Positions 23,222 through 37,740 of a DNA stretch of 64,000 nt are shown here, in pieces. A program made the translations under genes and the position numbers. Location: assembly GCF_900142415.1 (NCBI RefSeq), contig NZ_FRAU01000002.1, positions 186,001 through 250,000 of the forward strand, given 5' to 3'. Positions within the stretch are counted from its first letter, which is position 1. The number at the start of each line of letters is the position of its first letter. The notes below the pieces were generated by a model. The model worked only from the letters and a program-made list of their open reading frames with translations, was not told the DNA's origin and did no database searches. Source of the stretch: Rhodothermus profundi (GTDB lineage: Bacteria > Bacteroidota > Rhodothermia > Rhodothermales > Rhodothermaceae).

Positions 23222-24868
23222 ATGAACTATGGCTTTCTGATTCGGAATGACCGGTGCATTGGCTGCCATGCCTGTTCGACGGCCTGCAAGAGCGAGAACA
23301 ATGTGCCGCTGGGCGTCTATCGCACCTGGGTAAAAAGCGTGGAGGTCGGCGTCTATCCCAACGTACGTCGGCACTTCCAGGTAACGCGCTGTAATCATTG
23401 TGCCAATCCGCCGTGCGTGCGCATCTGTCCGGTTACGGCTATGTACCAGCGGGACGATGGCATTGTGGAGTTTGATCCGGACGTGTGCATTGGCTGCAAG
23501 GCCTGCCTGCAGGCGTGTCCCTACGATGCCATTTACGTGGATCCGGAGACCGGCACGGCGGCCAAGTGTCATTTCTGCGCGCACCGCATTGAGCTGGGGC
23601 TGGAGCCGGCCTGCGTGGTCGTGTGTCCGGAGCATGCGATTATTGCCGGGGATCTGGACGACCCCAACTCCGAGATTAGCCGCATGCTGGCTGAGCTGGA
23701 GGTAACGGTTCGTAAGCCCGAGCAGGGAACGGCGCCCAAGCTGTTCTATGTGGAGGGCAACGACGCCAATTTGACGCCGACGGCTGTCGAGGCGGCGCCT
23801 CCAACGTTCGCCTGGGCCGACGCGTGGTCGGACCGAGCCTGGGAGGTTGGGGGAGATGGCGCGCCCGAGCGGGCAAGGGCTGACCGAACGGCCGATTCTG
23901 GGACGCCTATTCGGACGCCTGGCGCGCAGGGCATCCCGGAACCCGGACCCATCTTTATCGGGGAAGGCCGCATGGCTGGCCAGATGACCCAGGTGGCCTA
24001 CAACGTGCAGCACCGGATTCCCTGGCACTGGCCAGTGCCGGCCTATCTGGTCACCAAAGGGATCAGTGCCGGGCTGTTTTTGCTGATGGCGCTGGGCGTG
24101 CTGCTGGGAGGCGTGCCGCCGGTGGCGCCTACGTTGCTGTGGGCCGGGCTGGGCACGCTTCTATTTCTTGGCATAACGACGGGCTTGCTGGTATACGACC
24201 TGGAGCGTCCCGAGCGCTTTCTGCGCATTGTGTTTCGGCCGCAGTGGAAGAGCTGGCTGGCCCGGGGCGCCTTTCTGCTGATCGGGTTTGGCGCTGTGGC
24301 CGGTCTATGGTGGGTGCTGGAAGGGGGTGCCTGGCTGGGATGGTGGGCCGAGCCAGCAGCAATGCGGCCTTTCCTGCTCGGTGTGGGAGTGCCGTTGGCG
24401 CTGGGAGCGGCTGTTTACACGGCTTTTCTGTTTGCCCAGGCAGAAGGACGCGATCTCTGGCAGAGTCCGCTATTGCCGGTGCATCTGCTGGTGCAGGCAG
24501 CACTGGCCGGTAGCGCCCTGATATTGCTGACGGCGCCCTGGTTGCCCTGGGAAGCGCGTTTGCTGGAGCTGGCGCGCTGGACGCTGGGGCTAAGCCTGGG
24601 GCTGGATTTGCTGGTAACCCTGCTGGGCGAGTTTGGGATGCCCCATGCTTCGGAGGTGGCGGCTCGGGCTGCGCATCGGATCACGCATGGTCCTTACCGG
24701 CACCATTTCTGGACCGGCAGCCTGTTGCTGGGGCATCTGGTGCCACTGGCGCTGCTGGCCTTCGGTGGACTCTGGGGGGAGGCTGCCGCCGGCCTGCTGG
24801 CCCTCGTGGGGCTCTACCTTTATGAGTACGCTTTTGTAATGGCTCCCCAGGAAATTCCCAATAGCTGA
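23222..24868 (+). CDS. Fused iron-sulfur / NrfD membrane subunit of a SoeABC/polysulfide-reductase-like complex
   Basis: A 548-aa fusion. Residues 1-150 form a four-cluster ferredoxin subunit with 16 cysteines in CX2CX2CX3C-type groups (C12/15/18/22, C57/60/65/69, C89/92/95/99, C116/119/131/135). Residues 150-255 are a charged linker. Residues about 260-545 are an NrfD/PsrC membrane subunit with about eight hydrophobic segments, expected to exchange electrons with quinone. In most Psr/Phs/Soe systems these are two genes. It is followed after 4 bp by the molybdopterin subunit. Sulfite oxidation (Soe-type) is favoured by the lack of export signals and by nearby SQR and TauE. Confidence 0.88.
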   Translation: MNYGFLIRNDRCIGCHACSTACKSENNVPLGVYRTWVKSVEVGVYPNVRRHFQVTRCNHCANPPCVRICPVTAMYQRDDGIVEFDPDVCIGCKACLQACPYDAIYVDPETGTAAKCHFCAHRIELGLEPACVVVCPEHAIIAGDLDDPNSEISRMLAELEVTVRKPEQGTAPKLFYVEGNDANLTPTAVEAAPPTFAWADAWSDRAWEVGGDGAPERARADRTADSGTPIRTPGAQGIPEPGPIFIGEGRMAGQMTQVAYNVQHRIPWHWPVPAYLVTKGISAGLFLLMALGVLLGGVPPVAPTLLWAGLGTLLFLGITTGLLVYDLERPERFLRIVFRPQWKSWLARGAFLLIGFGAVAGLWWVLEGGAWLGWWAEPAAMRPFLLGVGVPLALGAAVYTAFLFAQAEGRDLWQSPLLPVHLLVQAALAGSALILLTAPWLPWEARLLELARWTLGLSLGLDLLVTLLGEFGMPHASEVAARAAHRITHGPYRHHFWTGSLLLGHLVPLALLAFGGLWGEAAAGLLALVGLYLYEYAFVMAPQEIPNS

Positions 24869-24872
24869 AGCG

Positions 24873-27800
24873 ATGGCTACGACAACCCTGACTCAGCCCA
24901 GGTCGCTGCTGGAGCGTCTGCTGCTTCGATTGCAGCAAGCCACAGGCGCTGCAACCGAAACATCGGTTGCCTCCGAGAGGGCGTCGCAAACGTCTACCGA
25001 GGCAACGTCCTGGGGACCGCCTCGTTTTGCCGAAACCGACCGGACGCCCGAACCGGTGCAACTGCAAACGGTCGTGCATCCAGACGGCCGCATCAGTCAG
25101 TATCCGCCGCCTGACAAATGGGAAGACTGGGTCGAATGGGATGGACAGGCCTGGCCGCGGCGGGTGGCGCGTCGCTACACGCTGGTGCCGACCGTCTGCT
25201 TCAACTGCGAGAGCGCCTGTGGACTGCTGGCTTACGTGGATCGGGAGACGCTGGAAATCCGCAAGTTCGAGGGTAACCCGGTGCACCCCGGCAGTCGGGG
25301 ACGAAACTGTGCCAAAGGGCCGGCCACCATCAACCAGATTTACGACCCGGAGCGCATTCTCTATCCGCTCAAGCGCGTGGGCAAGCGCGGCGAAGGCAAA
25401 TGGAAACGAATTTCCTGGGAAGAAGCGCTCAATGAGATCGCCGAGAAGATGCGGGAGAGCCGGCTGCGGCGGCGGGATGGGATCATGTACCACGTCGGTC
25501 GGCCCGGCGAAGATGGCTATACGAACCGGGTCATTCAGGCCTGGGGCGTGGACGGCCACAACAGCCACACCAACATCTGCTCCTCCAGCGCGCGGCTTGG
25601 CTATACGCTCTGGAGCGGTATCGACCGGCCCAGCCCAGACCATGCGCACGCGCGGGTCATCCTGCTGCTGTCCAGCCATCTGGAGACCGGCCACTACTTC
25701 AATCCTCATGCCCAGCGGATCATTGAGGGCAAGGAGCGAGGGGCGAAGCTGATTGTGCTAGACCCGCGGCTCTCCAACACGGCTTCTAAGGCCGACATCT
25801 GGCTGCCGACCTGGCCGGGCAGTGAGGCCTACGTGCTGCTGGCCTGGGCAAACTATCTGATTCAACAGGATCGCTATGCGAAGGACTTCGTGCGGCGGTG
25901 GGTCAACTGGGAAGATACGCTCCAGGCGGTGGCCGAGGGCCAGTTGCCCATTGAGGATGCCGGGCTGCGGGAAGCTATTCGGCAGGCAGCGCCCCGCTTT
26001 TCGTTCGAACTCTTTGATCGGCTCCTGAAGCACCTGTACGCTCCCTTCACCCTGGAGCGGGCTGCTCGCGAGGCTCAGGTGCCGGTTGAGCGGCTTCGTG
26101 AAGCGGCCGAATACATTGCAGACTGCCAGGGGCGGCTGGCTACCCATAACTGGCGCAGCGCCTCGATAGGCAACCTGGGGGGCTGGCAGATCACGCGCGC
26201 GCTGTTCTTCCTGAATGTGCTAACCGGCTCGGTGGGCACAAAAGGTGGAACTGGCCTGAACGCCTGGCACAAGTTTGTCCCGCGTCCCTTTGACGTACCG
26301 CCTCCGGGAAATACCTGGAACGACCTGTTGCTGCCGCAGGAATGGCCGCTTGCCTTCTTTGAGATGAGTTTTCTGCTGCCCCACATGCTGCTGGAAGGGC
26401 GCGGCACCATCGACGTGTACTTTACGCGCGTGTACAATCCCCTCTGGATCAACCCGGACGGCTTCGTCTGGCTGCAGGCGCTGCTGGACGAGGAAAAAAT
26501 CCGTTGCCATGTCGCCCTGACACCTACCTGGAATGAGACCGCCTGGTTTGCCGACTACGTGCTGCCCATGGGGCATGCGGGCGAGCGGCACGACCTGATG
26601 AGCCAGGAAACCCATGCCGGGCAATGGATTGCCTTCCGCCAGCCTGTTCGGCGCGTGGCAATGGAACGGCTGGGGCATTCGGTGCGCTACACCTACGAAG
26701 CCAACCCCGGCGAGGTGTGGGAAGAAAACGAATTCTGGATCGAACTTTCGGCGCGCATGGATCCAGACGGCAGTCTGGGCATCCGGAAGCACTTCGAGAG
26801 TCCCTATCGCCCGGGCGAAATTATTACGGTAGAGGAATACTATCGCTGGATCTTTGAAAACCAGGTGCCCGGTCTGCCCGAAGCAGCGGCGAAAGAAGGA
26901 CTGACGCCGCTGGAATACATGCGCAAGTATGGCTGCTTTGAAGTAAAGCGGGACGTGTACCAGCCCTATGAGCGCGAGGTAGGACCTGAAGACCCCGGCG
27001 TCGAGGTTGATGGCGTGCGACGCGCTGGCTTCCCGACTCCCAGCCGTAAGCTGGAGTTCTTCAGCCGCACGCTCTATGAGTGGGGCTGGAAAGAACCGCG
27101 CTTTACAATCCCCTGGCCGCTGAAGAGCCACGTCCATCCTGACCAGATCGACCGCTCCCGTGGCGAGATGCTGCTGCTGCCTAACTGGCGGCTGCCTACG
27201 CTGATTCATACCCGCAGCGCCAACGCAAAATGGCTGTATGAGCTGAGCCACAAGAATCCCATCTGGATGCATCCTGAAGATGCGGCTCGCATTGGCGTGC
27301 GCACGGGCGACCTGGTACGGGTGGAGACGGAAATTGGCTACTTTGTGAACACGGTCTGGGTGACAGAGGGCATCAAGCCCGGCGTCATTGCCATGAGCCA
27401 CCACCTGGGGCGGTGGCGGTTGAAGCCTGATCTGGGCGTCAATCGCCAGGCGTCTGCCTGGGTAGCACTGGAGGAGACCGGTCCCGGCCAGTACCGGCTG
27501 CGCCGGAAAGCCGGAGCGACGCCCTTTGAAAGCTGGGATCCCGACACGCGTCGCATCTGGTGGCAGGAAGTGGGCGTGCATCAGAACCTGACCCATGCGG
27601 TGCATCCCGATCCTGTCAGCGGCGCGCACTGCTGGCTTCAGAAAGCCGTGCGCGTAACGCGGGCGCAACCGGGCGATCAGCAGGGAGATGTCTGGGTAGA
27701 CACCCGACGCTCCATGGAGCTGTACCGCCGCTGGGTAGCGCTCACGCGGCCGGCTGCGCGTTACAGCCCGGACGGCACGCGGCGTCCTTACTGGCTGAAG

Positions 27801-27968
27801 CGCCCGCTTAAACCCACCCGCGAAGCTTATCGGCTGCCAGATGCGGTCTTTACGCCGGCGGAACCCTATCCATCGCTCGAAGAGGCAGCGTCCCTCATTT
27901 CTGAGGATTTCCTGATAGGGCCCCGGCCGACCGATCCCGGGCGGCTCAACGCGGAAACCGACTCATGA
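24873..27968 (+). CDS. Molybdopterin oxidoreductase catalytic subunit, SoeA-like
   Basis: A 1031-aa DMSO-reductase-superfamily protein. The [4Fe-4S] site is C109-X2-C112-X3-C116-X29-C146 (VCFNCESACGLLAY..NCAKGP). THTNICSSSARLGY contains C236, the likely molybdenum ligand. A C-terminal molydopterin-dinucleotide-binding region includes NWRLPTLIHTRSANAKWLYE and WMHPEDAARIGVRTGDLV. There is no twin-arginine signal, so it faces the cytoplasm, as SoeA does and PsrA/PhsA do not. Arsenate, thiosulfate and polysulfide enzymes are related; sulfite dehydrogenase is the best guess from context. Confidence 0.85.
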   Translation: MATTTLTQPRSLLERLLLRLQQATGAATETSVASERASQTSTEATSWGPPRFAETDRTPEPVQLQTVVHPDGRISQYPPPDKWEDWVEWDGQAWPRRVARRYTLVPTVCFNCESACGLLAYVDRETLEIRKFEGNPVHPGSRGRNCAKGPATINQIYDPERILYPLKRVGKRGEGKWKRISWEEALNEIAEKMRESRLRRRDGIMYHVGRPGEDGYTNRVIQAWGVDGHNSHTNICSSSARLGYTLWSGIDRPSPDHAHARVILLLSSHLETGHYFNPHAQRIIEGKERGAKLIVLDPRLSNTASKADIWLPTWPGSEAYVLLAWANYLIQQDRYAKDFVRRWVNWEDTLQAVAEGQLPIEDAGLREAIRQAAPRFSFELFDRLLKHLYAPFTLERAAREAQVPVERLREAAEYIADCQGRLATHNWRSASIGNLGGWQITRALFFLNVLTGSVGTKGGTGLNAWHKFVPRPFDVPPPGNTWNDLLLPQEWPLAFFEMSFLLPHMLLEGRGTIDVYFTRVYNPLWINPDGFVWLQALLDEEKIRCHVALTPTWNETAWFADYVLPMGHAGERHDLMSQETHAGQWIAFRQPVRRVAMERLGHSVRYTYEANPGEVWEENEFWIELSARMDPDGSLGIRKHFESPYRPGEIITVEEYYRWIFENQVPGLPEAAAKEGLTPLEYMRKYGCFEVKRDVYQPYEREVGPEDPGVEVDGVRRAGFPTPSRKLEFFSRTLYEWGWKEPRFTIPWPLKSHVHPDQIDRSRGEMLLLPNWRLPTLIHTRSANAKWLYELSHKNPIWMHPEDAARIGVRTGDLVRVETEIGYFVNTVWVTEGIKPGVIAMSHHLGRWRLKPDLGVNRQASAWVALEETGPGQYRLRRKAGATPFESWDPDTRRIWWQEVGVHQNLTHAVHPDPVSGAHCWLQKAVRVTRAQPGDQQGDVWVDTRRSMELYRRWVALTRPAARYSPDGTRRPYWLKRPLKPTREAYRLPDAVFTPAEPYPSLEEAASLISEDFLIGPRPTDPGRLNAETDS

Positions 27969-28858
27969 CCACCTTCGACCCGCAGTTGCTGGCCCAGCTC
28001 TATCACCGGCTGGGCCAGCTCCTTCTGGATGGACGGGCGTCCACGATCCGGCAGCTAACGGGCCAGTTGCCGGAGCTGGTCGAGGGCCTTTCAGAAACCG
28101 ATCCGGAAGCGCTGGCGGCGGCCCACTATCACGTCCTGGGGCGCGAAGTGCCGCCCTACGCCAGCCTGTTCTGCGAGGTGGATCGACGCATCGGCGGGCA
28201 GACAACCGAACACTACCAGCGCCTGTATCGGGCGGCCGGATTTACGCTGGATCCTCGCCAGGAACCAGCCGACCATCTTGGACAGATCCTGCATTTCCTG
28301 GGCTTCTGTCTGGAGCAGGAACGCCCGGAACGTCAGGAAGCAGCCCGCCAGCTTCTGCACGGCGAAGGACTGGCATGGCTACCGGTTTTTGCATTTGCGG
28401 TGGCGCGTCAGCAGATTCCTTTTATGGATCGGGTAGTGGGGTTGGTTACCGAACTGATCCAGGCCCATCAGACCCTCCTATCTCCCCCTGCGCGAAGAGC
28501 GTCGTTGCCATGGCCTGATCCGGCTGTGCCCGGGCCTGAAGCAGGTCTGGCTCAGTTGGCTGCGTATCTGACCACGCCGGTTCGGTGTGGGTGCTATCTG
28601 AGTTTGGCCGATCTGCAACAGATAGGACGCCAGGTAGGCCTTCCGGTGGGCGTTGGCCCGCGCGTGCAGGTGCTGGAAACGTTGCTCCATACGGCTGCTC
28701 TGCATGGCCGGGCTCGTGCGTTGCTGGAAGCCCTGCTAGCCCTGGTCGAAGCGTGGCGGCAATACCTGGCAACCTGTGCGGACAAAGTAGGTGTCTGGCG
28801 TGAACGCCTGGAAGCTACCCGAAGACTTTTGCAGGCTGCCTGGGAGACGCTGGACTGA
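27965..28858 (+). CDS. TorD/DmsD-type chaperone of the molybdoenzyme
   Basis: A 297-aa, mostly helical protein whose start overlaps the molybdoenzyme stop by 4 bp. The TorD-family pattern is visible: an N-terminal region resembling LxxPP-x-SLF (VPPYASLFCEVDR), then EPADHLGQILHFLGFCLEQE and later WLPVFAFAVARQQIPFMDRVVG. Such proteins bind the apo-enzyme and coordinate cofactor insertion. The C-terminal 110 residues (after RRASLPWPDP) extend beyond the usual family length and are not recognised. Confidence 0.77.
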   Translation: MTTFDPQLLAQLYHRLGQLLLDGRASTIRQLTGQLPELVEGLSETDPEALAAAHYHVLGREVPPYASLFCEVDRRIGGQTTEHYQRLYRAAGFTLDPRQEPADHLGQILHFLGFCLEQERPERQEAARQLLHGEGLAWLPVFAFAVARQQIPFMDRVVGLVTELIQAHQTLLSPPARRASLPWPDPAVPGPEAGLAQLAAYLTTPVRCGCYLSLADLQQIGRQVGLPVGVGPRVQVLETLLHTAALHGRARALLEALLALVEAWRQYLATCADKVGVWRERLEATRRLLQAAWETLD

Positions 28859-29166
28859 ACGGGCTTTGGTTGCGTGAAGAACCTGGCAGTTAACTGCAAA
28901 GCGTACTACCTGGCCTTCCCCGTTGAATATAAAGGGCCCCGGCTTGAATTCTGGTTGCAGGTGTCCGACAGGACGTGTCTGCCTGGAGACCGGAGATAAC
29001 GTTGCCCTCTAGCAAAGCGGACCGGCACATACCGTCCAGAGGGCGGTGGCCGTGGGAGTAGAGGCTGGAAAGGCAGTGCTGATTGACGCAGGTTTTCGGA
29101 TCGGTGTTGCAGGGACGTCTGGCAGATAGATGGGATAACGTTGTGCTTTCGGGCCGTTTTGATGGC
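28859..29166 (+). other. 308-bp leader region of the metal operon
   Basis: No gene is recognised. Seen: a perfect 12-bp palindrome GCAGTTAACTGC (28886-28897), a decamer GATAACGTTG repeated at 28995-29004 and 29134-29143, and an imperfect hairpin closed by CCCTCT/AGAGGG around 29005-29042. Any of these may be regulator sites or a leader structure for the following operon. Confidence 0.4.
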
Positions 29167-29565
29167 ATGCGCCTGCCTGTTTCCTCCTGGCGAGAGCGGA
29201 TGATCGGCGTGCTGACGCTCTTTACGTCGGGCGGTACGCTGATCTGCTGCGCGTTGCCGGCTGCGCTGGCGGCGCTGGCCGGTGGAGCCGCCGTGGCCTC
29301 GCTGGTATCGGCGTTTCCCTGGCTGATTCCTCTTTCGCAGCAAAAAGACTGGATCTTTCTGGGAGCCGGCGGACTGCTGCTGCTCAACGGGCTGCTGGTG
29401 TTTCGTCCGCAGAGCCGGCTGGCCTGTCGGATAGCCGGCGGCACCGGGTGCCAGGTGGCCGGACGCTTTACCCGCCTGACGTTCTGGGTAGCGCTGGGGA
29501 TGTACAGCATCGGGGCCTTCTTTGCCTATGCGTTGACCCCCCTACTGCGCTGGCTGGAAAGCTGA
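29167..29565 (+). CDS. Small MerT-like inner-membrane protein
   Basis: About 132 aa with three to four hydrophobic segments. The first contains adjacent cysteines (TLICCALPAALA), as in MerT/MerC mercury-transport proteins. A second pair (LACRIAGGTGC) lies in a loop before the last segment, again a MerT-like feature. The start is uncertain: ATGs at 29167 and 29200 are in frame, and an ATG at 29083 gives a poorly conserved extension. It heads a run of co-oriented genes encoding exported HMA proteins and a MerR regulator, so metal-ion transfer across the inner membrane is likely. MerA is absent. Confidence 0.65.
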   Translation: MRLPVSSWRERMIGVLTLFTSGGTLICCALPAALAALAGGAAVASLVSAFPWLIPLSQQKDWIFLGAGGLLLLNGLLVFRPQSRLACRIAGGTGCQVAGRFTRLTFWVALGMYSIGAFFAYALTPLLRWLES

Positions 29566-29576
29566 CGGTGACCAGG

Positions 29577-30323
29577 ATGAAGCGCCTTCTGCCACAGATC
29601 ATGGGTGGTCTGCTGGGATGGATGCTGGCCGGGTTCGGTCTGGACGGTCTGGCGCAGCCGCTTCCTCCTTTTCGCCATGAGCCTATTTTCGGACTGGGAC
29701 CCCGAACGATCTGGCAGGGCGGCTGGGGGATTGAAGTCGGGGTGGACCGAAATCGGACGGTGCGGGCCGACCAGTGGCGGCTGGAATATGAAGTGCTCTA
29801 CGGGCTGACCGTCAACTGGGCGACCACGCTTGTTCTGGAACAACCTGTTGATGGAGCGCCCGTGGATGTCTCGGTGCGCACCAAGTATCGGTTCTTCCGT
29901 CGGGATGTGCGCGGCGGGGTCTACCATGCCGCAGTACTGGGTGGGTTGGTGCTGGCAGAAGGTGCAGGCGCGCCAGAGGCTGTCCTGCTGGGACTTTCGG
30001 CCGCCTATGAAGGGCGGCGCTGGCTGCTATTCCTGACCGGACGGCAGCGGTTGGGCCAGCGGCCCGTGACGCGCTACGACGTGGCGCTGGGCGTGCGCCC
30101 CGTCCGAACCGGTTACTACCAACCCGACCTGGTGGTGATGGCCGAGGTGAACGGCCAGCTCTTTCGAGATCCCGTAGACCATCGCATGCTGGCCGCCGTC
30201 GGTCTGTGGCTGACCTACCGGAACTGGGCCTTTAAACCGGGAATCCAGTGGCCGCTATATCGCAGCCGAGGCGTAGAACCGCTCCGGTCCCGATGGGTCG
30301 GATCCATCGAAGTTCATTTTTAG
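29577..30323 (+). CDS. Putative outer-membrane beta-barrel protein of the metal operon
   Basis: About 248 aa with an N-terminal signal peptide (GWMLAGFGLDGLAQPLPP). Alternating polar/hydrophobic strands end in GSIEVHF, whose C-terminal aromatic residue is typical of outer-membrane proteins. Repeated GWGIEVGVDRN, WRLEYEVLYGLT and WLTYRNWAFKPGIQ segments read as beta-strands. I do not recognise the family. It sits 11 bp after the MerT-like gene and before the HMA genes. An outer-membrane channel or sensor for the same metal is an inference. Confidence 0.6.
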   Translation: MKRLLPQIMGGLLGWMLAGFGLDGLAQPLPPFRHEPIFGLGPRTIWQGGWGIEVGVDRNRTVRADQWRLEYEVLYGLTVNWATTLVLEQPVDGAPVDVSVRTKYRFFRRDVRGGVYHAAVLGGLVLAEGAGAPEAVLLGLSAAYEGRRWLLFLTGRQRLGQRPVTRYDVALGVRPVRTGYYQPDLVVMAEVNGQLFRDPVDHRMLAAVGLWLTYRNWAFKPGIQWPLYRSRGVEPLRSRWVGSIEVHF

Positions 30324-30348
30324 CCCGATAACCAGATCGGAAAGAACG

Positions 30349-30711
30349 ATGCGACTGCGTTTCCGCGTTGCTTCTGGCCTGTTAGTGCTATGGATGGGCG
30401 TAGGATTCTTACCAGCGCAGGGGCAGACCCGGGTGCCGGTGCCGGACGCCATCCTGTACGTCAAAGGCCTGGCCTGTCCGTACTGCGCCTATGGGCTGGA
30501 AAAGAAGCTGAAGCAACTTTCTATGGTTCGAGAAATTGAGGTGCAGATGGACGAAGGCCGGGTGCTGGTGGCCTTTCGGAAAGGACAGCGTCCCGACCCT
30601 GCTGCGTTTGAGGCCCTGGTTGCCCGCGTAGTGAAAGAAGCCGGATTCACCTTGGAGAAGGTGGAATATCCAGCCCGGCAGAACCTTTCTCGAAGGAAAG
30701 GCGGATCATGA
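30349..30711 (+). CDS. Exported heavy-metal-associated (HMA) domain protein 1
   Basis: A 120-aa protein with a signal peptide (residues 1-26, cleavage near PAQGQ) and one HMA domain (about 34-105). The metal site is GLACPYCAYGLEKKL (C43, C46). The usual Met before the first Cys is Leu-Ala here. It resembles periplasmic MerP/CopZ-type carriers that shuttle soft metals. A second, divergent copy follows 62 bp later. Confidence 0.82.
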   Translation: MRLRFRVASGLLVLWMGVGFLPAQGQTRVPVPDAILYVKGLACPYCAYGLEKKLKQLSMVREIEVQMDEGRVLVAFRKGQRPDPAAFEALVARVVKEAGFTLEKVEYPARQNLSRRKGGS

Positions 30712-30773
30712 AGCAGAGGCAAGCGTAAGGCAGGGAAAATCGCTTTTCTTCATCACCCATTCACGGAGGAGCC

Positions 30774-31121
30774 ATGATGGTACGAATGCTTTCGCTTGCG
30801 GCCTTGCTGATGTGGCTGGGCGGGGTTGCCTATGCCCAGGAGAAGGAGACTGCTGCGCCGGACACCCTGAAGGCCGATGCAGTGATCTACATGAAAGGAT
30901 TGACCTGTGAGATGTGCGCCCGCAGCGTATCGGTGGCGCTGCAGCGGGTCGAGGGAGTGGCCGACGTGCAGGTTTTTCTGGAGAAGCCGCAGCGGGCCTT
31001 GCTTACGCTGAAGGAAGACGCGCAGGTGAGCGAAAAGGCGCTGCGCACGGCCGTTGAAAAAGCCGGGTTTGAAGTCGAAGGAGTGCGCCTTCGCGGAAAG
31101 AAAAAGAAAGGCTCGTCTTAA
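30774..31121 (+). CDS. Exported heavy-metal-associated (HMA) domain protein 2
   Basis: A 115-aa protein with a signal peptide (residues 1-21, cleavage after AYA) and an HMA domain with site MKGLTCEMCARSV (C45, C48), followed by the expected VEGVADVQVFLEK strand. The C-terminus is a lysine-rich tail (RGKKKKGSS). A good ribosome-binding site (GGAGGAG) precedes the start. It is followed by the MerR gene after 2 bp. Sequence similarity to HMA protein 1 is confined to the fold and site, so any duplication is old. Confidence 0.85.
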   Translation: MMVRMLSLAALLMWLGGVAYAQEKETAAPDTLKADAVIYMKGLTCEMCARSVSVALQRVEGVADVQVFLEKPQRALLTLKEDAQVSEKALRTAVEKAGFEVEGVRLRGKKKKGSS

Positions 31122-31123
31122 GC

Positions 31124-31591
31124 ATGCCGCGGGGGCTGACCCGGGGCGAGCTGGCCCGACGGGCGGGCGTTCGTCCCTCCACAATCCGCTACTACGAGGC
31201 CCAGGGATTGTTGCCCGCGCCGGCCCGGACATCGCGCGGCTACCGCATCTATACGGAGGAATATGTCGCGCGCCTGCGGTTTATTCGGCGGGCCCAGGCC
31301 CTGGGTTTTTCGCTGCGTACCATTCGGGAGCTCCTTGAGGTGGCGGCTGCAGGGAAAGAAACGGCAGCGATTGTCCGCCAGCAAGCCCTGCGGCACTTGC
31401 AAGAGGTGCGTCAGCGCCTTCAGGACTTGCAGCGGCTTGAGCAGGTATTGTCGCAACTGGTGGCCGCCTGCTTGGCGCGCCAGGAGGAAGGGTGTCCGAT
31501 TTTGGAGGCCTTGCGAGCTGACGCTCCGCTCCCTTATGCGTCGGACCTCTCCGAAGCGGAGGCCTCGGCGCCTGGTACTTCTTTAAGGTAG
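31124..31591 (+). CDS. MerR-family regulator, CueR-like
   Basis: A 155-aa regulator. The N-terminal winged helix (LTRGELARRAGVRPSTIRYYEAQGLL) is typical. The C-terminal metal loop is C116-LARQEEG-C124-PILEAL: a Cys-X7-Cys spacing and trailing CPI-E-L that match the copper sensor CueR. The position equal to CueR Ser77 is T80, not Cys, which fits a monovalent metal (Cu+, Ag+) rather than Hg2+ or Zn2+. It is the last gene of the operon and probably controls it. Its 3' end overlaps the convergent SulP gene by 58 bp. Confidence 0.87.
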   Translation: MPRGLTRGELARRAGVRPSTIRYYEAQGLLPAPARTSRGYRIYTEEYVARLRFIRRAQALGFSLRTIRELLEVAAAGKETAAIVRQQALRHLQEVRQRLQDLQRLEQVLSQLVAACLARQEEGCPILEALRADAPLPYASDLSEAEASAPGTSLR

Positions 31592-33312
31592 GTGTCGGCC
31601 TGGCCCCATTGCCGCAGGATATGCAGGACTGCCCGGTGCGGGCTGAGGAAGAAGTGGTCTGCTCCCAGTTGGTCCACCAGGTGGCTCCGGCGCATGGTTT
31701 CCAGGACGGGTTCCTTAACGCCGGCAAAGTAGAGGGTCACTCCCTGTTCCTGAAGGATGCGGGCCGTTTCTTTGAGGGTGGCTGCGGCTGTGGTGTCTAG
31801 GTCGTTAATCGAAGAAGCATCCAGAATGACGGCTCGGATGGAGGGATCGTCGCGCGTGCGGGAAAGCAGCAGATCCTGCAAAAAGTCGGCATTGGCAAAC
31901 GAAAACGACGCATCGATGCGCAGCAGGAGCAGTCCGGGAATGGGACGCGCTTCGGGATGATGGCGCATATCCCGAAATGACCGCGTGCCGGGCAGGTGGC
32001 CCAGTTCAGCTACGTTAGGACGGCTGATGCGATACATGATGGCTATGACCGAGGCCGCGATGCCGCTGAGCACGCCCTCCTGCACGCCCAGCAGCAAGGT
32101 GATGGCAAAGGTGAGCAGGGCGATGGCTCCGTCGGTGCGTTTGATGCGCCAGAGCGCGTGCAACCCGCGCAAATCCAGCAGGCCTACCGCGGCCACGATG
32201 ATAATCGCCGCCAGGGCAGGTACGGGGAGGTAATAAAACCAGGGCGTGAAGAAAAGCAGCGTCAGGGCAACCACGCTGGCTGCAATGACATTGCTCAGCG
32301 GCGTGCGCGCTCCGGCCTGGGCATTCACGGCCGTTCGGGAGAAGCTACCAGAGACGGGCAGGCTCTGAAAAAAGCTGCCGGCCAGATTGGCGGCGCCCAG
32401 CGCGAAGAGTTCCCGGTTGGGACGAATGCTGTAGCGGTAGCGGGCAGCAAACGCTTTGCCCAGCGTGATGACGCTCATGAACTGCACCAGGGCCAGCGTC
32501 AGTGCCGTGGGAAAAAGCGATCCGAGCGCGGAAAAGTTGATTTCGGGCAGTGACCAGGTGGGCAGACCCCGGGGAATTTCACCAACGATGGCGACGCCTG
32601 TCTGCTCCAGCCGAAACAGCCACACCAGCAGCGTGGTCAGCAGCACCACAACCAGGGCGGCCGGCACGCGGGGCGCGTAGCGTTGCAGTCCAATCAACAC
32701 CAGAATAGCGCCCAGGCCCAGCAGCAGGGTTGGCCAGTGGATGGCAGACAGATGGGTCAGCGCCTCCCAGAGTAGCCGATGTGGAGGAGCGCCGCGGGAC
32801 AGAGACAGGCCCAGCAAGCTACCGAGCTGGCTGAAGGCAATGATGAGTGCAGCCGCCGACATGAAACCCGTCAGCACGGGACGGGAAAGCAGGTTGACCA
32901 GAAAGCCCAGGCGTGCCATGCCCATGATGAGCTGTAAGGCACCCACCAGGGCCGTCAGCAGAAGTACCAGCGCAAGATAGCGGGGCGATCCCGGCGAGGC
33001 CAGCGGAGTCAGACCGGCTGCCACAATAAGCATATCAATGGCAATAATGCCAGCGGCCAGATGGCGCGAAGTGCCCAGCAGGGCATACACCACCAGCGGG
33101 ACCAGCGAAGCATACAGTCCATAGACAGGCGGAACCCCGGCCAGCAGCGCGTAGGCCATGCTCTGCGGAATGAGCATAATGCCGACGGTCAGACCGGCTG
33201 TCAGATCACCGCGAAAATAGGCTGCCTGGTAGTTGCGCAGCCAGGTTGCCGCCGGAACGAGCCGTTGCAGCCACGAACTATAAGCAACCGAGCGAAGCGA
33301 ACGCGGCATCAT
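31534..33312 (-). CDS. SulP-family anion (sulfate) permease with STAS domain
   Basis: A 592-aa transporter. The SulP core has LTAGLTVGIMLIPQSMAYALLAGVPPVYGLYASLVP near the start and QSLPVSGSFSRTAVNAQAGARTPLSN in the second half. About 12 hydrophobic segments are followed by a C-terminal STAS domain (about 455-575; ILDASSINDLDTTAAATLKE). Substrates in the family include sulfate and bicarbonate. Sulfate is favoured because the promoter shares a motif with sulfur-metabolism genes. Two adjacent ATGs mark the start. Confidence 0.9.
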   Translation of the reverse strand: MMPRSLRSVAYSSWLQRLVPAATWLRNYQAAYFRGDLTAGLTVGIMLIPQSMAYALLAGVPPVYGLYASLVPLVVYALLGTSRHLAAGIIAIDMLIVAAGLTPLASPGSPRYLALVLLLTALVGALQLIMGMARLGFLVNLLSRPVLTGFMSAAALIIAFSQLGSLLGLSLSRGAPPHRLLWEALTHLSAIHWPTLLLGLGAILVLIGLQRYAPRVPAALVVVLLTTLLVWLFRLEQTGVAIVGEIPRGLPTWSLPEINFSALGSLFPTALTLALVQFMSVITLGKAFAARYRYSIRPNRELFALGAANLAGSFFQSLPVSGSFSRTAVNAQAGARTPLSNVIAASVVALTLLFFTPWFYYLPVPALAAIIIVAAVGLLDLRGLHALWRIKRTDGAIALLTFAITLLLGVQEGVLSGIAASVIAIMYRISRPNVAELGHLPGTRSFRDMRHHPEARPIPGLLLLRIDASFSFANADFLQDLLLSRTRDDPSIRAVILDASSINDLDTTAAATLKETARILQEQGVTLYFAGVKEPVLETMRRSHLVDQLGADHFFLSPHRAVLHILRQWGQADTYLKEVPGAEASASERSDA

Positions 33313-33358
33313 CCTGTCTCATGGAAGTCCGGCCGGGCCTTACTGCCCGTTAAGGTAA

Positions 33359-33383
33359 CAAAGATAATAACATGTGATAACAA
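33359..33383 (-). promoter_or_regulatory. SulP promoter -7 box with sulfur-regulon motif copy C
   Basis: On the minus strand TATCTTTG (33359-33366) matches TAnnTTTG exactly, 47 bp before the SulP start. The motif ACATGTGATAACAA (plus-strand orientation, 33370-33383) lies 3 bp upstream of it. This is almost the same distance as in front of the SoeBC-like gene (2 bp). No well-spaced -33 TTG is clear. Confidence 0.55.
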
Positions 33384-33453
33384 TTGCACGACAAAAACAT
33401 TTCTGGCGTTTGAACCTGCGCGTCACGGTTCCGTTGCACAGTGATGAGGAAAA

Positions 33454-33774
33454 ATGGCGACGGCTACTCGGGGCGGAGCCATGTTGGTGCTTTTTCGACG
33501 CGCGCAGGATCCGATAGCAGACGACATTGAGGAGCAACTGCGGGAGCTGGTGCTGGCGCATCGCGTGGTTCGGGTAGACAAGGCCGGGCGCCTGCCAGAT
33601 GGGACCCTGCCAACGGCCTGGCCAGTGCTGGTCGAAGGTCGTAGCGCGCGTTATGAGGGGGCGAAAGCTATTCGGGCCTTTCTGGAGGAGCTGGCGCATG
33701 AGGTGCGGCTTAACCGGCAGTTTCAGGCGGACGCCTGCTATCTGGATCCTGACGACCCCTCCTGCTGTCTTTAA
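33454..33774 (+). CDS. Small protein of unknown function, possible thioredoxin-fold
   Basis: A 106-aa protein with AGGAAAA before the ATG. The pattern LVLFRRAQDPIADDIEEQLREL, then WPVLVEGRSARYEGAKAIRAFLEEL, resembles a glutaredoxin-like alpha/beta unit lacking a CxxC in the usual N-terminal place. The protein ends DACYLDPDDPSCCL, with three cysteines clustered in the last ten residues. It is divergent from SulP and shares its control region with it, suggesting a sulfur link. The family was not recognised. Confidence 0.6.
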   Translation: MATATRGGAMLVLFRRAQDPIADDIEEQLRELVLAHRVVRVDKAGRLPDGTLPTAWPVLVEGRSARYEGAKAIRAFLEELAHEVRLNRQFQADACYLDPDDPSCCL

Positions 33775-34385
33775 TCCATGCGCTGCTGCCAGACCAGGCG
33801 TACCGTAGCGGCTGGACCCTGGTGGCCGGGGCCTTCGTGCAGCACTGGCGTTGCGTTTTCCAGCAGATGGAAGCCTTCGGGCGCGAAGTGCTGGCGGAGC
33901 TCGTCGGCGGTTACCATCCAGGTCGGGTCGGGCGGGCCACCACTGGGGTAGCCTTCGATGCGCTGCTCGGGCCGGAACCACTCAGCGATCAGGTACCCTT
34001 TGGGGCGCAGTATGCGGTGGACCAGAGCGTAGAGGATCGGGCGCGCCTCAGGCGGTAGATGCAGAAAGGTGATTACCACAGCATCCCAGGTGCGGTCAGG
34101 CTGCCAGCGAGTAACGTCGGCCTGGACCGTATCGACCGTTACACCCGCCTGCGTTGCCAGCTGGCGGGTTTTTTCCAGCCCGATCTCGGCGTAGTCGAGT
34201 GCTGTTACGCAAAAGCCCTGTCGGGCCAGCCAGACGGCATTCCGTCCCTCACCGGCGCCCAGCTCGATCACTTCGGCGCCGGGGCGGAGGTAGCGGGGGA
34301 TGGTTTCCGCTATAAAAGCGTTGGGCGCGGTGCCATAGAAGAAGTCGGGGCTGGCAAATCGCTGGTTCCAGCGTTCAGGGTGCAT
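33771..34385 (-). CDS. Class I SAM-dependent methyltransferase, TehB-like
   Basis: A 204-aa protein. The SAM-binding motif is EVIELGAGEGRNAVWLARQGFCVTALDYAE (about 38-67), followed by VQADVTRW and VVITFLHLPPEARP. The opening WNQRFASPDFFYGTAPNAFI is typical of methyltransferases annotated as TehB/thiol methyltransferase-like. The substrate is unknown. It overlaps the 3' end of the upstream nucleotidyltransferase by 11 bp and the convergent small-protein gene by 4 bp. Confidence 0.82.
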   Translation of the reverse strand: MHPERWNQRFASPDFFYGTAPNAFIAETIPRYLRPGAEVIELGAGEGRNAVWLARQGFCVTALDYAEIGLEKTRQLATQAGVTVDTVQADVTRWQPDRTWDAVVITFLHLPPEARPILYALVHRILRPKGYLIAEWFRPEQRIEGYPSGGPPDPTWMVTADELRQHFAPEGFHLLENATPVLHEGPGHQGPAATVRLVWQQRMD

Positions 34386-34767
34386 CGTCGCACAGCGTGT
34401 TGAGGGGAATGCGGGACCACAGTACCCGGCCGGTCTGGAGCGCCGTCTGGGCCAGAGGTTGGCCGTTCCGAATTTCGTCGAGGGTGTAGGGAAAAAGGTC
34501 TAGGTCTACCGGAAACGTGGCAGGCAGATATGCGTCGATCCGCTTCAGGAAGGGTTGTTCGCTGGCGCGCAGCACAACGAGTAGATCCACGTCGCTGCCT
34601 ATGCCGGCTTCGCCGCGTGCCCATGAACCAAAACAGACAACGGCCAGCACCTCTTCCCGTTGTCGGAGGGTTTCGGCCAGCGTCTGCAGGGCTGCTTCAA
34701 CCTGAGGTCGGTCCAGTGAGAAGACCGTGACTGAACCGTAGGATCGCTTCTGCACAGCGGATGGCAT
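34375..34767 (-). CDS. MNT-type nucleotidyltransferase (antitoxin of a HEPN/MNT pair)
   Basis: About 130 aa with the minimal nucleotidyltransferase signature VVCFGSWARGEAGIGSDVDLLVVL (GSxARG...SDxDL) and a later VDLDLFPYT acidic residue. In HEPN/MNT modules this protein adds AMP groups to, and silences, the HEPN ribonuclease. The ATG at 34767 lies within the HEPN gene (71-bp overlap). An upstream reading to 34869 would overlap even more. Confidence 0.8.
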   Translation of the reverse strand: MPSAVQKRSYGSVTVFSLDRPQVEAALQTLAETLRQREEVLAVVCFGSWARGEAGIGSDVDLLVVLRASEQPFLKRIDAYLPATFPVDLDLFPYTLDEIRNGQPLAQTALQTGRVLWSRIPLNTLCDDAP

Positions 34768-35101
34768 GTTCGGCTTCCGGGCGGGTGAAAAATTCCGTGG
34801 GAGCCCCTTCGGCCAGTCCGTTGGGATGCCGGGTGGGAATGTAGAGCTTGTCCAGCGTTTTGGCGGCATTCAGGAGGGCTTCTTCGATAGAGAGCCCCTG
34901 GTCCTCGAGGGCCTGCAGCATGCGGGTTACGGAATGCCCCCAGGCTTGCTGTCCGCGTTGCTCAAAGACCGCCTTGAGGGCTTTTTCTGCCGCCTGCTGG
35001 GCGGCGAAGCAGGCCCATTCAAAATCTTCATCTGCAAGGGCATGGCGAGCGTGGCGCAGGTCGGCCTCGGCCTGTACCCACCAGTCACGGGCGCGTTGCA
35101 T
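34697..35101 (-). CDS. HEPN-domain protein (toxin of a HEPN/MNT pair)
   Basis: A 134-aa all-helical HEPN protein: WWVQAEADLRHARHALADEDFEWACFAAQQAAEKALKAVF, then the loop LYIPTRHPNGLAEGAPTEFFT with an Arg-His pair in the usual RX4-6H area, and EAEHAIRCAEAILRF. Such proteins are ribonuclease toxins or nucleotide-binding partners of MNT proteins. It is the upstream gene of the overlapping pair. Confidence 0.82.
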   Translation of the reverse strand: MQRARDWWVQAEADLRHARHALADEDFEWACFAAQQAAEKALKAVFEQRGQQAWGHSVTRMLQALEDQGLSIEEALLNAAKTLDKLYIPTRHPNGLAEGAPTEFFTRPEAEHAIRCAEAILRFSHGLLTGPTSG

Positions 35102-35165
35102 AAGACGGCGACATTTGCGGGCAACAGCTGATTTGGACCAGCCGTTGCCCGCAAACGTTCCGCCT

Positions 35166-35588
35166 CTATTCGACAGCGGCGCCGGCGCGGGCCAGGTCGT
35201 TGAAGCCGCCGATGTTGTAAAGCTTCCGGAAGCCCATGTCCCGGAGGATTTCGGCGGCGCGTTGACTCCGGCGGCCCGAGCGGCAGTAAAGATACACGGG
35301 CGCGTTGGGATCCAGGTTCAGCGCCTGGATGCGCTCCCGGAAGTCGGCAGCCAGTACGTTAACGTTCCGCGCGCCTTTCAGGTGACCTTGTGCGAATTCT
35401 TCGGGCGTGCGCACGTCGAGGATGACGGCCTCCGGGGTATACCGGGCCAGGAATTCCTCCGCCGATAGCCGCACAATGACGGCAGGGTTGGCCTGCTCCG
35501 TGGCCGGAGCGCTTTGCGTGGAAGCACGCTGCGGCGTGCAGGCCTGCAAGCCAGGAAGTAGCAGCAGCAACAGTAGGAGCAAACGCAT
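35166..35588 (-). CDS. Rhodanese-domain lipoprotein
   Basis: A 140-aa protein. An unusually leucine-rich signal peptide ends in lipobox LQAC, giving a lipid-anchored periplasmic protein. The rhodanese domain (about 45-135) has the catalytic loop YCRSGRRS with an active Cys. It transfers sulfane sulfur. The ATG at 35588 is chosen because it begins the signal peptide; the longer reading to 35798 has no signal and runs into the upstream gene. Codons for VRTPEEFAQGHLKGARN are identical at DNA level to those of the next gene. Confidence 0.87.
   Translation of the reverse strand: MRLLLLLLLLLPGLQACTPQRASTQSAPATEQANPAVIVRLSAEEFLARYTPEAVILDVRTPEEFAQGHLKGARNVNVLAADFRERIQALNLDPNAPVYLYCRSGRRSQRAAEILRDMGFRKLYNIGGFNDLARAGAAVE
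35364..35419. repeat. 56-bp exact repeat, copy 1 (rhodanese lipoprotein)
   Basis: This 56-nt stretch is identical, including third codon positions, to 35800-35855 in the neighbouring rhodanese gene. Flanking sequence is clearly different. Confidence 0.95.
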
Positions 35589-35607
35589 AGGGCTTCTTCG
35601 GGGATTT

Positions 35608-35964
35608 TTAGCGTTCGATTTCGGCGCCAGCCTGAACCAGGGCTTTGAGGCTGCCGATATTGTACGCCTCAAGGCCGCGTTCGCGCAGCAACCGCGTGGC
35701 GTATTCGCTGCGGTTGCCGGAGCGGCAGTAGAGATAATAGGTACGGTCTGGGCGCAGGCGTGCAATTTTTTCCGGAAAGTCCGGGGCGCTGACGTCAAGG
35801 TTCCGCGCGCCTTTCAGGTGACCTTGTGCGAATTCTTCGGGCGTGCGCACGTCGATCACCACGTCTTCCGGGCGACGTCGGTGCAGGAAGACTTCCGGTC
35901 GCAGTTGATCCGGCCGGGTATGGCCGGGCGTTGGGCGCAGTCGTTCAAACAGTCGGGTCCACAT
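35608..35964 (-). CDS. Cytoplasmic rhodanese
   Basis: A 118-aa single rhodanese domain without a signal peptide. The segment DVVIDVRTPEEFAQGHLKGARN leads to the catalytic loop YCRSGNRS. It is a paralogue of the lipoprotein rhodanese next to it (19 bp apart). The pair would handle sulfane sulfur on the two sides of the membrane. The gene stands between the haem lipoprotein and the rhodanese lipoprotein in one minus-strand run. Confidence 0.88.
   Translation of the reverse strand: MWTRLFERLRPTPGHTRPDQLRPEVFLHRRRPEDVVIDVRTPEEFAQGHLKGARNLDVSAPDFPEKIARLRPDRTYYLYCRSGNRSEYATRLLRERGLEAYNIGSLKALVQAGAEIER
35800..35855. repeat. 56-bp exact repeat, copy 2 (cytoplasmic rhodanese)
   Basis: Identical to 35364-35419; same orientation and same reading frame. 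This suggests recent gene conversion between the paralogues. Confidence 0.95.
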
Positions 35965-35980
35965 GGTTGGTTTTCAACGG

Positions 35981-36559
35981 TTAGGGGTTATGGTTGGTGC
36001 GTTGCCACAGCGTGTCCGGCACAAAGACACTGTAGAGGCCCCGCAGGTCGCCGGGCTGAAAGTTGTAAGCGCGGTCATCCGGATAGCGCTGGACGATAAA
36101 GTCCGGGCGTTTTTCACGCGGGCCGTGGCAGGCCAGGCATTGCGGGCGCACGGTAATGCGGCGCAGGTAGCGCCAGCCGGGGGTGCCGTTCCAGGTGGCC
36201 CGTACCCAGAGGCTGTCGAGCGTAGGATCCGCTTCGAAGCGCGCGAAAAGCGCGGCAGCCTGGCTGTCTGGCCGGTGGGCTGGATTCCGGTATTTCACGG
36301 CCAGCTGTTGCACGACCCATCCGTGCTGCGCTGCCAGCCGGCGCGCCTGCTGCCCGACAGGCCGACAGACGCGGTTGAACGTCGCCTCGTTGATGGTTTC
36401 CTCGGCCGTGATGGTCTGGGCCAGGCTGGCCCGCAGCGCATCCAGCGCTCGAATGGCGTCTGCTACCTGCTGCCGGATCGGTTCAGGTGGCGCCTGCGGG
36501 GGCGTGCTCATGCGGCACGCGCTCAGCAGCAGGGCGGCTATCAGGACGACCGCGCGCAT
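35981..36559 (-). CDS. Single-haem c-type lipoprotein, DUF3365/Tll0287-like
   Basis: A 192-aa protein. A lipoprotein signal (LLLSAC, Cys15) precedes a domain resembling DUF3365 (RVCRPVGQQARRLAAQHGWVVQQLAVKYRNPAHRPD). One haem c site follows, C141-LA-C144-H145. A late tyrosine-rich strand DLRGLYSVFVPD is also typical. It is likely a periplasmic redox or sensing haem protein in sulfur metabolism. The start at 36559 begins the signal peptide. Confidence 0.8.
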   Translation of the reverse strand: MRAVVLIAALLLSACRMSTPPQAPPEPIRQQVADAIRALDALRASLAQTITAEETINEATFNRVCRPVGQQARRLAAQHGWVVQQLAVKYRNPAHRPDSQAAALFARFEADPTLDSLWVRATWNGTPGWRYLRRITVRPQCLACHGPREKRPDFIVQRYPDDRAYNFQPGDLRGLYSVFVPDTLWQRTNHNP

Positions 36560-36579
36560 GATGCTATCCTCGGGTTGGA

Positions 36580-36912
36580 TCAGGATGCAGTTGGCTCCGG
36601 TACATGCCGGTGAAGCCACTGGCGCACTGCCGGTTCTGGCAGGGCGCCGACGAACTCATCGACCACCTGGCCGTTGCGAAACAGTTTCACGGTCGGAATA
36701 CCCCGCACCTGGTAATGCAGGGCCAGTTCGGGGTGCTGGTCGGTGTTGATTTTGACCAACCGCCAGGCCCCCTTGCTTTCACGAGCCAGTTTTTCTAGCA
36801 CAGGCCCCAGGATGCGGCAGGGGCCGCACCAGGGCGCCCAGAAGTCAACCACTACAGGCTTTTCGTGGCTCTTTTCAATCACCTCTTTGTGAAAGAATTC
36901 CGGAAGCGTCAT
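36580..36912 (-). CDS. Thioredoxin
   Basis: A 110-aa protein with the classic active site FWAPWCGPCRILGP (C29, C32), the cis-proline GIPTVKLF, and no signal peptide. Within the sulfur operon it would reduce persulfides formed on rhodaneses or on the CstB-like protein. It is separated from tauE by 30 bp. Confidence 0.95.
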   Translation of the reverse strand: MTLPEFFHKEVIEKSHEKPVVVDFWAPWCGPCRILGPVLEKLARESKGAWRLVKINTDQHPELALHYQVRGIPTVKLFRNGQVVDEFVGALPEPAVRQWLHRHVPEPTAS

Positions 36913-36942
36913 GGCTGTTTTTTCTGGTTGGATTAATGCATG

Positions 36943-37740
36943 TTAACCCGTCAGCACGCTCAGATTCTGATAGAGAATCCAGAGTCCCATCAGAATAAGA
37001 AAAATGGCAAAGCCGCGTTGCAGGCGTTGCTGGGGGATGCGCGCGCCAATCCAGTTGCCGACGAATGACCCGGCAATACCGACGGCCGCGAAGAGACCCA
37101 CCAGTTTCCAGTTGACGGCCAGCCCCATTGAGGCCAGAACGTCCAGATACTTCAGGTAGCCGGCCACGCTTTTGAGCGCAATGATCACTAGGCTGGTGCC
37201 GACAGCCCGGCGCATGTCGAGCCCGCCCAGGAGCACCAGGGCCGGCACAATCAGGAAGCCGCCGCCGACCCCGACCAGGCCGGTCAGCACGCCCACACTG
37301 ATGCCTTCGAGCATGATTTTCCAGGCAGCATGTGGAGGAGCCGCTACCACACTGCTGGCCGCAGGCGTCAGCGGCGAAGCACCTGGGCGGCGCCCCCGGT
37401 ACATGAGGATAGCCGCCAGCAACATTACGCCTGCGAACAGGACAAGCTGCACCGGGCCAGAGACAAAGCGCGACAGCCAGGCCCCTCCGTAGGTCCCGAT
37501 AATACCGGGAATGCCAAAAAACAGGACGCTTCGCCAGTCGATGGCTTGCTGGCGGGCATACGGGAGGGCACCGGCGGCTGCGATAGCCGCCACAATGCCC
37601 AGGCTTTCTGCAATGGCCACCTTGTCAGGTTCTCCCACCAGGTACACCAGCACCGGGACGGTTAGAATGCTCCCGCCGGAGCCGAGCAGGCCCAGCGACA
37701 GCCCGATAAGCACCGCTCCGCTTAGCGCAATCCACCACAT
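36943..37740 (-). CDS. TauE/SafE-family sulfite (anion) exporter
   Basis: A 265-aa membrane protein with about eight hydrophobic segments. Two family repeats are visible: GLSLGLLGSGGSILTVPVLVYLVG near the start and SVGVLTGLVGVGGGFLIVPALVLLGGL in the middle. Members export sulfite, sulfoacetate or related anions. In cst-like operons a TauE protein is thought to remove sulfite made by persulfide oxidation. Confidence 0.9.
   Translation of the reverse strand: MWWIALSGAVLIGLSLGLLGSGGSILTVPVLVYLVGEPDKVAIAESLGIVAAIAAAGALPYARQQAIDWRSVLFFGIPGIIGTYGGAWLSRFVSGPVQLVLFAGVMLLAAILMYRGRRPGASPLTPAASSVVAAPPHAAWKIMLEGISVGVLTGLVGVGGGFLIVPALVLLGGLDMRRAVGTSLVIIALKSVAGYLKYLDVLASMGLAVNWKLVGLFAAVGIAGSFVGNWIGARIPQQRLQRGFAIFLILMGLWILYQNLSVLTG

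Follow-up and report, generated by a model that had tools for sequence, protein, structure and literature searches.

A reduced version of an unnamed module found in many phyla, putatively for a soft metal: a five-gene operon with MerT-like, barrel, HMA and MerR-family proteins in Rhodothermus profundi

Which metal is handled, and by which route, when an operon resembles the transport part of a mercury-resistance operon and yet encodes an outer-membrane barrel and neither a reductase nor an ATPase? This question is raised by a locus found in the window, i.e., the whole stretch of 64,000 nucleotides of the Rhodothermus profundi genome analyzed here. The five genes proposed in the first-pass annotation were all found, in the proposed order, on the plus strand and with intact reading frames. 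The operon and its flanks are as follows:

27965-28858: TorD-like chaperone gene, upstream flank of the five-gene operon
29167-29565, plus strand: MerT-like gene (132 aa), first of five
29577-30323, plus strand: outer-membrane beta-barrel gene (248 aa), second of five
30349-30711, plus strand: exported HMA carrier 1 (HMA-1), motif CPYC; PF00403 at 26.5 bits, above the cut-off
30774-31121, plus strand: exported HMA carrier 2 (HMA-2), motif CEMC; PF00403 at 42.6 bits, above the cut-off
31124-31591, plus strand: MerR-family metal regulator, PF13411/PF09278 above the cut-off; fifth of five
31534-33312, opposing strand: sulfate permease gene, the other flank of the operon

As had been claimed, the operon and its immediate surroundings in the window contain neither a reductase gene nor one for an ATPase. 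The absence of MerA holds for the operon only, since family searches, on which all our statements about the whole genome are based, place a mercuric reductase on another contig (C3) of the same genome. The intact frames, together with dN/dS values of 0.07-0.18 for each of the five genes in pairwise comparisons with three sister species, indicate that the operon is maintained under purifying selection. No name for the gene set was found in the open-access literature, in agreement with the earlier statement that it matches no named system, and a search of that literature for a MerT-like protein with a barrel, or for mer operons of this group, returned nothing matching.

The operon lies within a sulfur-metabolism neighborhood. 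Positions 23222-28858 encode an Fe-S/NrfD fusion, a 1031-aa molybdopterin oxidoreductase, and the TorD-like chaperone, which together perhaps form a sulfite-oxidising enzyme of the SoeABC type, while positions 31534-37740 encode the sulfate permease, two rhodaneses, a thioredoxin-like protein, and a TauE/SafE exporter. The complete 23222-28858 set also occurs in two sister loci (L021 and L022) and is missing beside SulP in G167 and G168. These two near-complete genomes of the same genus keep the sulfate permease and its other neighbors, and have neither the metal operon nor the molybdoenzyme genes adjoining it.

The first protein of the operon gave no match to PF02411 (Pfam/NCBIfam) at an E value of 1, and is therefore not a member of the MerT family by profile. 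However, hhalign aligned its profile with that of MerT, built from seven MerT/MerTP domains, at 94.7% probability (E 6e-8, 88 columns; both alignments are small), which indicates homology. The cysteine layout is also that of MerT, with C27-C28-x2-P31 in the first hydrophobic helix and a second pair, C87 and C95, in the loop that leads into the last long helix. None of these four cysteines varies among 39 aligned MerT-like sequences, and neither do the rest of the C27-C28-x-x-P31 motif and a number of glycines. The predicted structure is all-helical, a small bundle with a pTM of 0.56. On these sequence grounds, we consider the protein a distant relative of MerT, so that the resemblance to MerT/MerP transport noted in the first-pass annotation is borne out by both the profile match and the cysteines. 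As neither this protein nor the barrel matches a Pfam/NCBIfam family, we name the former from its profile alignment to MerT and the latter from its modelled structure. No plasmid-borne MerT-like copy was found in 72,556 plasmids. In the genome of relative G029 (contig C1, L034 9262-11929), a second copy of the module retains intact barrel and HMA genes, but its MerT-like gene is broken and its regulator ORF is split.

The AlphaFold model of the second protein is a 12-stranded barrel (pLDDT 81.7), and the sequence carries a signal peptide by inspection and a C-terminal Phe. Among known structures it most resembles 4rl8, an outer-membrane channel of the COG4313 type (VIA Z 21.2, 2.5 Å over 203 residues), followed by FapF (VIA Z 20.8), while the copper protein PcoB (PDB 7pge) scores lower (VIA Z 13.6). 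The 12-stranded fold is thus that of a COG4313-type channel, for which, to our knowledge, there is no link to metal. By sequence, the barrel has no Pfam match to that family and shares 9% identity with 4rl8. Its homologues are found in other phyla, most of them ending in Phe, and in most barrel relatives the signal peptide is followed by a His-[Glu/Gln/Gly]-Pro motif. In the window this motif is His-Glu-Pro near the mature N-terminus (29676-29687, barrel residues 34-37), where H34 is nearly invariant across relatives and constitutes a possible metal ligand.

Both HMA proteins consist of a single PF00403 domain with a signal peptide recognized by inspection, as in MerP, but they score 15.3 and 31.4 bits against the MerP equivalog TIGR02052, whose cut-off is 92.55 bits. 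HMA-1, with its CPYC motif, represents the Cx[F/Y]C carrier typical of the module: CxFC or CxYC appears in 47 of the 58 module HMA genes with a readable motif among the loci listed, while Phe or Tyr occupies the second X position in none of approximately 20 ordinary HMA domains (MerA, MerTP, MerP, CopA, and CopZ), a comparison set from which module copies were taken out by eye.

The regulator had been described as CueR-like on account of a C116-X7-C124 loop and Thr80. The two cysteines and their spacing are correct, while the selector residue was misplaced by one position: the residue aligned with Ser77 of CueR (numbered as in E. coli) and with the first cysteine of MerR is Ala81, the dimer-contact ligand position. 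The protein therefore has the metal loop of CueR but not its selector serine, and lacks the complete set of three MerR ligand cysteines. It scores 120.7 bits against MerR (TIGR02051, cut-off 150.85) and 115.7 bits against CueR (TIGR02044, cut-off 147.4), below the cut-off in both cases, and its two best PDB matches are mercury MerRs. Consequently, only the loop spacing fits the CueR-like label; the Ala in place of Ser, the higher MerR score, and the PDB matches speak against it. The combination of Ala81 with a loop of CueR length is found in the regulators of the window genus, whereas most regulators of the relatives (about 15) have the three-cysteine site of MerR.

The search of other genomes proposed earlier did recover the locus in three sister species of the same genus (G169, G170, and G171), with the same neighbors on both sides but with an additional gene, encoding a heavy-metal P-type ATPase of approximately 810 aa, directly upstream of the MerT-like gene. 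The TM6 motif of this ATPase is YPC, and not the CPC of Cu(I)-ATPases. The window genome encodes five ATPases of this superfamily, none of them with YPC, and the simplest account is that the operon without an ATPase is a derived state originated by a lineage-specific loss. Where the sisters carry the ~2.4-kb ATPase gene, the window has approximately 280 bp (28906-29184) that align to neither flank, the last 18 bases being the start of the MerT-like gene. As for the origin of this spacer, an ATPase remnant in 28859-29166 was rejected (the translated score falls within the shuffled range, with 7 of 60 shuffles as high), and so was an inserted repeat, as there is no second copy in the genome. The sole part of the 308-bp spacer aligning with the three sister species is the following block:

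28876-28905, plus strand: conserved upstream block GAAGAACCTG-x-x-AG-x-TA-x-CTGCA...CGTA, just past the TorD-like gene

By its conservation, this block is a candidate promoter/operator that may have been kept after the ATPase was lost. A sigma-70 scan of the spacer found no match. The MerR-type operators sought in 28859-29166 did not appear: no known operator of the MerR family, SoxR included, scored above chance, the published consensuses for MerR, CueR, HmrR, and ZntR being those of PMC1526738.

The YPC ATPase seems to be a companion of the MerT-like gene. Among 244 genomes of the class, none of its seven top-scoring matches is more than 4 kb away from a MerT-like gene, while four sampled next-best matches are ordinary CPC enzymes. 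Apparent relatives of the YPC ATPase segment at 57-61% were discarded, as all four sampled have CPC. The YPC ATPase is also found in the same neighborhood in Balneolales relatives and in G201. Examples of P1B ATPases with YPC in TM6 are:

L020 7325-9796, minus strand
L021 6358-8790
L022 6791-9226

These three also show a second, HMA-like CxxC segment at the C-terminus. Such ATPases were found in the class only next to MerT-like genes, and nothing matching YPC ATPases was found in the open-access literature. The presence of the ATPase in three sisters and its loss in one species offer a natural comparison for the contribution of the pump.

In 84,980 species genomes scanned, MerT-like relatives occupy at least 70 loci in many phyla. 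An exported HMA gene adjoins the MerT-like gene in most of the 70 loci listed, a barrel-family gene (two clusters taken together) is present in 55 of them, again in many phyla, and in the loci listed most phyla carry the module without this ATPase. The window operon is hence a slimmed-down copy of an unnamed cross-phylum module, and it is the module that is of interest, the window copy alone being modest. Tentatively, and with somewhat less than even confidence, we propose that the module takes a soft metal across all layers of the Gram-negative envelope by means of its own barrel, a CxFC/CxYC HMA carrier, and the MerT-like protein, combined according to lineage with MerA, with the new YPC-type P1B ATPase, or with neither.

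Two variations were observed at the edges of the module. In Balneolales (L024 11433-13991 and L029 11497-14096) it is followed by genes for ArsR and MerTP and by one for a disulfide reductase that contains GTCALRGCDPKK and scores below the MerA cut-off, possibly an alternative reductase cassette. In Marinimicrobia, as in some proteobacteria, the module begins with small secreted proteins that are rich in Cys and match no Pfam family (L057 2823-3194, L045 9175-9528, and L081 6143-6541).

For the window operon, the function that we regard as slightly more probable than not is a metal-inducible relay of the MerP/MerT type, in which a thiol-loving cation would cross the envelope with the help of a barrel dedicated to it in the outer membrane. 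An outer-membrane barrel and exported HMA carriers do make a possible route across the envelope, as the first-pass annotation had suggested. In the relay, of which we infer the direction, each hand-over, and the metal, the barrel would let the metal itself or a complex of it enter the periplasm, where the CxxC pairs of the exported HMA proteins would bind it, and the MerT-like protein would pass it through the inner membrane, from the helix-1 cysteine pair to the loop pair. The MerR-type regulator would turn the operon on as the metal rises. The cytoplasmic step would be encoded elsewhere, by MerA on the other contig in the case of Hg(II), or by CopA in that of Cu(I) or Ag(I). In the sister species a YPC-type P1B ATPase is part of the operon, a pump that the window lineage has, by the simplest account, lost. 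Against the relay stand the regulators of the window genus, which lack the third MerR cysteine, the absence of a linked mer gene in that genus, and the MerTP that the genome already encodes beside MerA. Moreover, P-type ATPases normally export, and yet the sisters have one next to what looks like an importer, and the proteobacterial and Marinimicrobia versions of the module have no mer genes and, in some cases, copper-type neighbors. The mer inventory given in passages of a recent survey covers transport proteins of the periplasm and the inner membrane, with no outer-membrane component among them (PMC8261052). Since a barrel is conserved next to MerT-like and HMA genes in several phyla, whether mercury or copper uses a dedicated outer-membrane gate becomes directly testable.

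As to the metal, the operon might be specific for mercury, providing auxiliary Hg(II) uptake that feeds a MerA encoded elsewhere, just as MerP and MerT feed MerA; we consider this possible, although doubtful. The true MerA of the genome and the three-cysteine site in most relatives' regulators are consistent with it, and mer genes adjoin the module in Calditrichota, Fodinibius, Balneola, G201, and an Actinomycetota MAG. The first-pass annotation had set one observation against its own copper reading, namely that relatives link the operon to a mercuric reductase, and such linkage does exist in part: MerA or MerTP lies within 10 kb in 7 of the 73 MerT-like loci listed, with at least five changes on a quick tree (139 columns, many forks unresolved), where chance would give about 0.4 by a rough estimate assuming around one MerA per ~4-Mb genome. 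Nevertheless, no such case occurs in the window genus, whose regulator lacks the third cysteine and has a loop of CueR length; G170 keeps the operon with no MerA above the cut-off (in an incomplete assembly), and G166-G168 carry MerA without the operon. The alternative of copper or silver handling in the envelope, with a regulator that senses Cu(I)/Ag(I) and a role in defense or redistribution, is plausible but unlikely. The two-cysteine loop points to it, as do CsoR-family repressor neighbors in L067, L078, and L083, a multicopper oxidase neighbor in L057, and a CPC ATPase with a Ser-type regulator in L089. However, the alanine at the selector position, the higher MerR score, the absence of CPC from the sister ATPase, and the full CueR-CopA-CopZ-Cus locus elsewhere in the genome argue against it. 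Since Ala81 fits neither the Cys of MerR nor the Ser of CueR, and both metals have loci of their own elsewhere, neither is taken as settled; we lean towards soft-metal defense, with mercury slightly ahead of copper or silver.

Two further readings are far less probable. Copper acquisition for respiratory oxidases, the idea put forward in the first-pass annotation, is not supported and seems improbable: a layout from barrel to MerT could serve import, five loci of the Hyphomonas group have a SCO1/SenC gene adjacent to the module, and what look like bd oxidase genes were seen by eye near L105, but the SCO link is limited to that one related group, no recurrent oxidase link was seen, and no oxidase gene was recognized in the window neighborhood. 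In addition, MerR-family sensors activate on metal excess, and the genome has its own CueR-CopA-Cus efflux locus. It is very improbable that the operon is a decaying remnant, non-working since the loss of the ATPase. That loss is lineage-specific, and one MerT-like copy in the relative G029 is broken; yet the five frames are intact, their dN/dS is as low as that between the ATPase-bearing sisters, and in most phyla this ATPase is absent from the module.

Among known systems, MerP/MerT is the closest in design to the relay proposed here, with an exported HMA carrier, a small inner-membrane protein with a helix-1 cysteine pair and two loop cysteines that is homologous by profile, and a MerR-family regulator. 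The window operon differs in a MerT-like protein below Pfam/NCBIfam detection, an extra barrel, a CxFC/CxYC-type carrier, the lack of MerA, and a regulator without the third cysteine. The ArsR-MerTP-MerA operon on contig C3 of this genome is likewise a soft-metal transport system in which a MerT domain is combined with an HMA domain, but these are fused as MerTP, and it has an ArsR-type regulator, a reductase, and no barrel. The CueR-CopA-CopZ-Cus locus (contig C7) likewise combines a MerR-family sensor, an HMA carrier, and an outer-membrane component, while differing in its P-type and RND exporters, another carrier, and Ser at the selector position. At the outer membrane, the COG4313 channel 4rl8 shares the 12 strands of the window barrel, unlike it at only 9% identity, and PcoB, a barrel for copper, is similar in fold, although as a weaker match and with no sequence relation shown.
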